DNA of 58,928 bases from Boothiomyces macroporosus (Eukaryota > Chytridiomycota > Chytridiomycetes > Rhizophydiales > Terramycetaceae): assembly GCA_027604185.1 (NCBI GenBank), contig JADGKB010000090.1:1-58928 (forward strand). Direction: 5' to 3'. The position numbers and the translations under genes were made by a program. This document shows, in pieces, positions 51,491 through 54,400 of the stretch (the first letter of the stretch is position 1; each line of letters begins with the position of its first letter). The notes beneath the pieces were generated by a model that was given only the letters and a program-made list of their open reading frames with translations, did no database searches and had not been told where the DNA came from.

Positions 51491-54400
51491 ATGACAGTAA
51501 ACTTTGATTCAATTGTTCCTACACCAGATGGATTGGAAGTTTTGAATCAGGAGATATTTGTATGGCCAATCACAAACTGGCCAACGTTCAAGAAACAAGA
51601 GCGAGTAAATTCACCTGCTTTCACATGTGGTAATAAGCAATGGTAATTAATACTAATATTAGGTAATAACTGATTAACCATAGGTAAATGGGGATTAATC
51701 ATAGGTATTTGGCTCCTAATTTAGGCGAGTGTTGATGTTTCCGAGCGGTAATAGAACCCCGGACACTATTTCAGTTTTTTTGGAATGTATGGATGCATCT
51801 GCAAAGCCAGATCATGAAAGATGGCACTGCTGCGTTACATTTGCAATCGCGGCTGCAAATTTTGAAAACGAAAGGGCTCATGCTAAAGTGAGTGGTAAGT
51901 TCTGTTTAATTGTAGCCGCAAATCACCGTTATACACCAAAGTACATTTGGTTAACTTCAGGGATACAGACTGGGGGTTCAGTCAGCTAACTACCCATGCG
52001 CTGTTGACAAAAAATATTGAGGGATTTGATGTTCCAATTATGGAGAATGATCAGTTTAAAATTATCGTCTACTTGAAGGAAATCAAGGATACCACTGGAG
52101 TGCTTTGGCATAATTTTAACGAGTAGCTGTTATTAATCGTAGCTGGGACTCCAAGTTGGAAACTGGCTTTGTTGGGTTGAAAAACCAAGTATTTAGTTGC
52201 TTATTTTAGGGTGCAACGTGTTACTTGAACTCTCTTTTGCAGTCTCTATATTACACAAACTATTTCCGCAAAGCTACCTTTGCAATTCCTACAGATGATG
52301 CTGATCCTTCCAACAATGTGCCATATGCGCTGCAAAGACTATTCTATCATCTGCAATTCTCAAATACTGCAGTCGGAACAAATGAATTGACAAAAGCATT
52401 TGGATGGGACTCTATGGATGCATTCCATCAACATGATGTACAAGAATTGAACAGAGTGTTGCAAGACAATTTGGAAAACAAGATGAAGGGCACTCCTGCT
52501 GAAGGAGCAATTCGTAAATTGTTTACGGGCAAAATGAAGAGTTACATTCAGTGTATTGATGTTGATTTCGAATCCTCTCGTATCGAAGACTATTACGATA
52601 TCCAATTGAATGTCAAAGGAAACAAAAATCTTGAAGAATCATTTGCAGATTATTGCCAAGTAGAAACCCTTGATGGAGATAACAAGTATTTTGCAGAAGG
52701 GTTTGGGTTACAACCTGCAAAGAAAGGTGTCATCTTCAAGTCGTTCCCGCCTGTACTTCACTTGCAACTAAAGCGATTTGACTATGATATGGAAAGAGAT
52801 CAATTTGTAAAAATCAATGATCGTCACGAATTTGGAATGACTTTGGATCTGGAAAAGTTCTTGGATGCTGATGCGGATAAATCGATCAAACAAAGATACA
52901 GATTACAGGGGTAAATATTGCTAATATAGTGTATTGGTTCACAGTGGAGACTTGAATGCGGGCCACTATTTCGCGTTGATACGTCCAAAGAAGGACGGTC
53001 CTTGGTATCGATATGACGATGATAAAGTAATCCCAGTCACCGAAAAAGAAGTTTTGAACGATAACTTTGGAGGGGAAGGGCAGCCTGTGCACAATGCAAG
53101 AGCCAATAAGATTGGTAACAGATATTACACCAACGCTTATATGTTGGTATACATCAGAGAATCAGACGAAGATGAAATCCTTGCCGAAGTGACTGAAGAT
53201 GACATTCCAACTCACTTGAAAGAAAGAGTTAAGCGTGACATTGAAGAAATGGAAAGAAGACAAAGGGAAATTCAAGAACAGCACTTGTATGCCAACGTTC
53301 ATGTAATTAGCGATTATGAATTGCAAAATCATACCGGATTTGATATTGGATTCAGAAGCGATCACGGAGTGACGATCGGAAACCATTTCAAATTCAGAAA
53401 AGAAGCCACCATAATGGATCTTCAAAATCACATTGCTGAAAACTACAATATTGATCCTGCTCAAGTAAGGCTTTGGAGCGTAATTACCCGTCAGAACAAG
53501 ACATGCAGAGCTGAAATTCCGCTATCATCACCTGATTGGTGGCAAAAATGTATTTGCTTTGTAACAATAGATGTCGGCGACTATTATCAAAATGTTGTAA
53601 AGTCTGGTGAAATCAAAATTTATGCCCAGTTAGCACACACTCCTATTTCTGCTGTACTATATTATTAACCTAGAATCAATACTTTCATCCAATAGGAGAA
53701 AAAACTGCCAACTCCCAAATAATGATATTTGTAAAGTATTATGATCCTTTCACTGCCAAAATGGAAGTTGTTGGAACTGAAATGGTGAGATCATCATCCA
53801 AAATTCAAGATCTAATTCCAAAGCTTCTAAAACTAAAAGGTCTGCCTGCAAGTCAAGAATTAGTATTATATGAAGAAGTTAAACCTGGAATGATTGACGA
53901 GCTTGATTTATCAAGTACATTTAATAATGCAGAGCTGGTTGATGGAGATATTATTTGTTTCCAAAAAATGTTGAGCGTTGAAGAGTACTCTTTGAAATTA
54001 ACAATAGTTTGGATAAAATGGAAGATCCAGTGTCTTTGACCACAGTACCTAAATATTTTGAATTCTTGACTAATCAAATCACTGTTACTTTCATTTCGCG
54101 TGAAAGAGCAACAGAAGGTGACGGTGAATTTGCACTAAAGCTTTCAAAAAAGACACCATTTGATGATGTAGCTAAACAAGTTGGATCATATTTAAAGCAT
54201 GATCCAACAATGATCAAATTCTATCAAAGTACACACAACAGAGCGCCACTTCAACCTGTTCGCAGACAATTAGGCACAACTTTAAGCGAAATGGTTGGTC
54301 AATACTATACAAATACAGATCCAGTCCTGTACTATGATTTGTTGGATATGTCGCTTGATGAATTTGATTCCAAGAGATATGTTAAATTGATTTTCTTGGA

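Follow-up and report, generated by a model that had tools for sequence, protein, structure and literature searches.

The USP7 gene of the chytrid Boothiomyces macroporosus is interrupted by a stretch of 82 nt which, with a probability of about 0.7, would represent four complete, directly abutting spliceosomal introns that are separated by zero-length exons and cut out separately by intron definition. The gene lies on contig C90 of the 15.2 Mb genome (216 contigs) that we scanned; this contig, analysed at its full length of 58,928 nt, is referred to as the window. The features of the gene that are relevant here are the following:

51491..55002, + strand: USP7 gene, spliced and translated, with Pfam and PDB matches
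51643-51662, + strand: USP7 array unit 1, 20 nt, GTAATTAATACTAATATTAG, intron score 7.2
51663-51683, + strand: USP7 array unit 2, 21 nt, GTAATAACTGATTAACCATAG, intron score 5.9
51684-51704, + strand: USP7 array unit 3, 21 nt, GTAAATGGGGATTAATCATAG, intron score 6.6
51705-51724, + strand: USP7 array unit 4, 20 nt, GTATTTGGCTCCTAATTTAG, intron score 6.6
52911..52929, + strand: ordinary solitary USP7 intron shown as an example, 19 nt, with RLQG preceding and VLVHSGD following it

Splicing and translation of the gene with all of its 14 introns removed, each 19-23 nt in length, gives a product of 1074 residues. A profile search matched this product to the Pfam families MATH_2, UCH, USP7_ICP0_bdg and USP7_C2, and its residues 36-1030 align with the solved structure of USP7 (9plr_C, E 1.4e-191). 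The array join is covered by both comparisons, as the MATH_2 match (residues 23-138) crosses it and the alignment with 9plr_C is free of gaps where W and R are joined (kqW/RvlmfP under lpWkimvmP, the slash marking the join). The initial annotation of this DNA had divided the 82 nt at 51643-51724 into GT-AG units of 20, 21, 21 and 20 nt, a division that is exact, and had assigned to each unit a GTA donor, a TAAY motif and a TAG acceptor, all of which are present in all four. The likeness it had noticed between units 2 and 3 is real as well, with the last 12 bases being the same but one. The GT-AG ends and the branch box near the 3′ end that characterize U2-type introns are found in each of the four units, and their intron scores of 5.9-7.2 exceed the 75th percentile (5.5) of 457 solitary introns. 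It had further been claimed that all four units must be removed to restore the sequence QWRVLMFP. Only full removal indeed leads to the open frame of 1074 residues, while all 15 combinations with partial or no removal run into a stop, which lies at codon 52 in 14 of them and at codon 61 in the remaining one.

The units resemble the ordinary introns of this genome. In a training set of 139 distinct introns from which the intron motif was derived, 136 start with GTA, 102 contain TAAT or TAAC, and in 119 the branch A lies 5 or 6 nt before the end; the resulting motif consists of a GTA donor, a YTAAY branch box and an AG acceptor. A gene model based on this motif was run on the window and 20 further loci (L031-L050), amounting to 256 kb in all, and replaced a model with flat intron lengths that had bridged many doubtful stretches. 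It predicted 530 introns, 496 of which are 18-24 nt long, a density that would extrapolate to approximately 31,000 introns genome-wide. The exon ends at solitary introns prefer an A at position -2 (247/464) and a G at position -1 (245/464). Candidates for U6 (62.2 bits) and U2 (142.2 and 135.4 bits) all score over the Rfam cut-off, and a full-length U1 candidate stays just under it (68.8 bits, cut-off 69.5); with candidates for these three RNAs in the genome, a major spliceosome is to be expected. Scanning the window and L031-L050 against Rfam yielded no hits.

It had been suggested to search the genome for abutting GT-AG units. We employed the pattern GTA..TAGGTA..TAG with units of 18-23 nt in four genome searches, each accompanied by a backwards control, and obtained 62, 20, 21 and 17 matches in comparison to 93, 38, 34 and 70 in the controls. 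The bare pattern is thus not enriched genome-wide (120 versus 235 matches in total). When the intron score is considered, both units reach at least 2.5, a threshold close to the value of 2.56 below which a quarter of the solitary introns fall, in 49 of the 119 scored matches, where 0.5-0.8 would be expected by chance. Hence, it is only pairs with intron-like scores that exceed expectation. The 49 well-scored intron-intron joins fall at 37 places in the genome, and the interpretation of the USP7 stretch as four complete introns with zero-length exons remains the best reading of a layout that recurs genome-wide. A looser search for a unit following a TAG resulted in 198 matches, as opposed to 125 in its control. 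Contigs C49, C92 and C163 each hold more than one array place. The 37 places include two pairs with the same sequence, on C49 and C100, and we read the arrays shared by these contigs as segmental duplications; within locus L041, the same 123-nt stretch occurs with the same flanking protein at both 1708 and 8120, which is likewise a segmental duplication.

That the layout stems from an assembly or sequencing artefact or from a chance resemblance is very improbable. When the 82 nt were shuffled with the 7 leading and 12 trailing bases held fixed, 3 of 300,000 shuffles could be tiled into GT-AG units of 18-24 nt without any motif demand, and in none of the 300,000 did a tiling reach an intron score of 0 or more. 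This result, together with a protein that is restored only upon removal of all four units, speaks against both artefact and chance, as do 37 places genome-wide against chance, for which fewer than one would be expected. Moreover, the USP7 units differ from each other, so that neither collapse nor slippage is needed. Nothing specific favors an artefact; the nine-unit array C1 is minisatellite-like, and its copy number could be misassembled.

The window contains a second array, located in a gene model with similarity to GID4:

26789..27129, - strand: GID4-like gene model with the second window array, its spliced product compared to solved GID4
26997..27015, - strand: second window array, unit 1, 19 nt, GTAATAGTTGCTAATATAG
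26978..26996, - strand: second window array, unit 2, 19 nt, GTACCTGAAGCTAATATAG

The spliced product aligns with solved GID4 without a gap over 89 residues (E 9.6e-35). Altogether, protein homology extends across the joins of eight arrays, and at the homology-backed arrays removal of the units restores the conserved protein, as is expected of U2-type introns. In a PPP1R7/SDS22-like gene the homology crosses the join without a gap, and a BRE-like gene possesses two three-unit arrays whose joins at residues 116 and 218 are covered by the stretch 105-237 of its Pfam BRE match (4.5e-9). The three-unit array of an E2 gene is bridged by a match with E 1e-6 whose only gap, of a single residue, lies away from the join. 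The longest array observed (C1:351601-351779) comprises nine units in 179 nt and resides in an MGM101 gene, the product of which places 39 residues on 39 profile positions (Pfam E 1.4e-13). In a WD40 gene with a seven-unit array of 149 nt (C8:113695-113843), the repeat match begins three residues before the join, and some of the units score poorly (-4.4 to 3.3). Three of the eight arrays, with seven, three and three units, lie inside 1.13 kb at C8:113695-114820 (in L031), in two divergent genes.

We further analyzed whether the frame of the spliced product is open in 13 apparent arrays. Nine of them were open at once, and the frame of C163b became so once an upstream 19-nt intron was removed. 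For the C92 array (L054), taking out all five units leaves an open frame of 33 codons; its product, tentatively labelled 'ING-like', has no Pfam or PDB match. An array on C77 (L056) extends beyond the edge of the analysed sequence and was counted outside the open frames, and in the C5 array (248274, minus strand) keeping both units gives no in-frame stop within 75 nt downstream of the join, which counts against the intron reading. An open frame over about 50 codons is weak evidence alone, and homology is stronger. Two candidates were rejected. On C17 (L042 6633) the apparent first unit is coding sequence, as a stop appears in the frame after splicing and the gene model places just one intron there, of 20 nt at 6655, and in a DEAD-box gene (L040 852, C15:139812) inspection by eye identified an exon ending in TAG ahead of a single intron.

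Exons of zero length form a separate class. In the window and the 20 loci there are 20 of them, in 11 arrays, versus 14 exons for the lengths 1-40 combined, a count that is biased for L031-L050 because these loci were chosen around pattern matches; the window alone contains 4 versus 6. Five of the 20 sit in three weakly scored arrays (L031 5451, L037 246 and L050 34).

How the arrays are removed is a separate question from their existence. The 82 nt could be a single intron, bounded by the first GT and the last AG and spliced in one step, with the inner sites being unused relics of tandem duplication, a reading that we regard as unlikely. Near-identical arrays such as C1, C8a and C92 would tile irrespective of whether their inner sites are used, the poor unit scores in the seven-unit array fit a decay of unused sites, and two non-tiling sequences of 43 nt, described below, suggest that lengths above 24 nt are tolerated. 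The diverged arrays, including that of USP7, argue against one-step removal, as their spacers are random-like and yet the inner donors, branch boxes and acceptors are intact and the units are 18-24 nt long. Since the spacers have drifted, unused sites should have drifted too. This argument is weakened by the fact that intact sites were what the search for arrays asked for; units that were added later by reading outwards, and that were therefore outside the demands of the search, nevertheless fit as well.

If the four USP7 units are instead cut separately, each inner boundary TAG/GTA would serve two neighbouring units at once, as acceptor for the first and as donor for the second, and the AG ahead of each inner donor would also suit the preferred exon end (A at -2, G at -1). 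Pairing of a splice site with its nearest partner is the usual expectation under intron definition. The units would be removed one by one, probably in 5′ to 3′ direction as the polymerase releases them, and such a separate, transcription-ordered removal by intron definition appears to be the simplest reading of the sequence. As any order of removal, or the joining of any donor with any later acceptor, leads to the same mRNA, an extra unit should be nearly neutral provided that every unit goes.

The initial annotation had proposed that the spliceosome of this organism might be unable to handle longer introns, a claim that is opposed by two homology-backed sequences. A SEL1L-like gene (L042 7253-7295) and a twinfilin-like gene (L045 2137-2095) each contain an intervening sequence of 43 nt that does not tile and across which the protein joins without a gap, and forbidding them lowers the score of the model by 5.0 and 14.2, respectively. 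Among the 34 longer intervals of the motif model, eight cost at least 5.0 when forbidden, with homology backing the two of 43 nt. Hence, a hard ceiling near 24 nt is unlikely, and removal of longer introns in one step is apparently possible. Both 43-nt sequences carry the motif GAACAG about 12 nt before their end. Our guess is that they are decayed two-unit arrays (43 = 22 + 21).

With respect to the origin of the arrays, the proposal that complete introns multiply as units holds for C1, C8a and C92 and is marginal for USP7. In the former, which are 3 of 16 arrays, neighbouring units are near-identical and show duplication of whole units in place. In USP7, one of the six unit pairs (2/3) exceeds random likeness at a p of about 0.05, and the other five are no more alike than random introns. 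Over all arrays, 11 of 42 adjacent unit pairs are more alike than random intron pairs at p<0.05 and 8 of 42 at p<0.01, the C1 array having entered these statistics with eight units and later being read as nine; without C1 and C8a, 5 of 33 adjacent pairs remain at p<0.05. Arrays would thus grow through duplication of whole units that may diverge afterwards, and duplication rather than insertion presumably built the USP7 array.

Separate insertion of units into the AG/G at an intron end, in the form of introner-like elements or reverse-spliced introns, is a rather doubtful alternative to which some weight must nevertheless be given. Consistent with it, the units within most arrays resemble each other no more than random introns do, and the AG that exon ends favour is supplied by an intron's own TAG. 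In addition, 116 pairs of solitary introns have at most three mismatches compared to a mean of 48 and a maximum of 71 after column shuffling, although this null is set too low, because the shuffle breaks the coupling between the positions of the branch box. Some of these pairs represent the same gene with repeated exons, and inspection of 15 of the 116 pairs revealed no cross-gene family of near-identical introns, which speaks against insertion, as does the duplication in place seen in C1, C8a and C92. Three or more units are present in 11 of the 16 arrays with flanks read, six of these 16 loci (L051-L056) having been chosen because they were long-looking. With about 37 places among about 31,000 introns, independent gains would render arrays of at least three units very rare, so that an array, once present, seems to be extended more easily.

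We compared the arrays to already characterized systems. Near-uniform introns of 15-25 nt are shared with mikrocytids, chlorarachniophyte nucleomorphs, Stentor and Paramecium, the latter three being known for near-uniform ultra-short introns. Grellscheid and Smith (2006) reportedly observed a mammalian pseudo-exon that is spliced as a zero-length exon, which is a single pseudo-exon and not an array. The introns of mikrocytids measure 16-17 nt and are few (224 in 179 genes), and end-to-end intron arrays are not mentioned in the portion of their account that was available (PMC10245619). Introners also multiply introns, and according to excerpts of PMC9860276 they form families of similar introns that reach new positions, whereas the arrays described here stack units at one position.

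Stwintrons, the spliceosomal twin introns of fungi, resemble the arrays in that several U2-type introns occupy one position and are removed successively. They are nested, an internal intron interrupting the donor, the branch or the acceptor of an external one (parts of PMC7138796, PMC9024468 and PMC12403724), whereas each of the four USP7 units has an uninterrupted donor, branch box and acceptor. The nearest analogue found is a stwintron arrangement of Lipomyces starkeyi, for which the accessible part of PMC7138796 describes constituent-intron donors that abut and a removal that may take one reaction or two. Recursive splicing at ratchet points, as in Drosophila Ubx and kuz, likewise involves a juxtaposed AG/GT at which splicing regenerates a donor and leaves no exon base, and this juxtaposition without an exon base is found at the array joins. 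Ratchet points lie in very long introns, whereas here whole introns of about 20 nt follow each other, up to nine consecutively. Ratchet points also only seem to be zero-nucleotide exons, since they require a cryptic RS-exon, equipped with a donor, that is then skipped (PMC8605326, in the sections that were accessible). At the array joins, a donor follows about 20 nt further on, namely that of the next unit. Arrays of at least three complete introns with zero-length exons were not found reported in the open full text searched, which includes parts of PMC11069148, PMC9998036 and PMC5126111.

We consider it an even chance that this lineage builds intron concatemers, in which 20-nt introns multiply in place, up to nine, and are removed unit-wise via genuine zero-nucleotide exons without an RS-exon; intron length would then grow mainly in whole-unit steps, owing to a spliceosomal preference for spans of about 20 nt, and intron gain would be seen in progress in the arrays. 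If true, they offer a clean natural test of how the spliceosome sets intron length, and a natural test of zero-length exon splicing without exon definition. End-to-end stacking would be an unusual mode of intron multiplication, and duplication of whole introns in place raises the intron number, a way of gaining introns that is seldom so readily observed in other systems. Gene finders with a minimum exon length would misread genes that bear such arrays.

Two further repeats were observed in the window. A predicted coiled-coil gene (55698-57477, + strand) consists of tandem exon-plus-intron repeats, with introns at 56182, 56307, 56432, 56557, 56683, 56808 and 56934, a spacing of about 125 bp and exons of 105 nt. 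Several of its introns are alike (GTAAGCTTGCTTAACAGTAG, GTAAGCTTGCTTAACTGTAG), which constitutes another form of intron multiplication. At 29336-33491 (+ strand), open reading frames repeat at an offset of 2071 bp (29336/31407, 30018/32089 and 30168/32239), indicative of a direct duplication, real or assembly-made, inside one predicted gene of 1600 residues.
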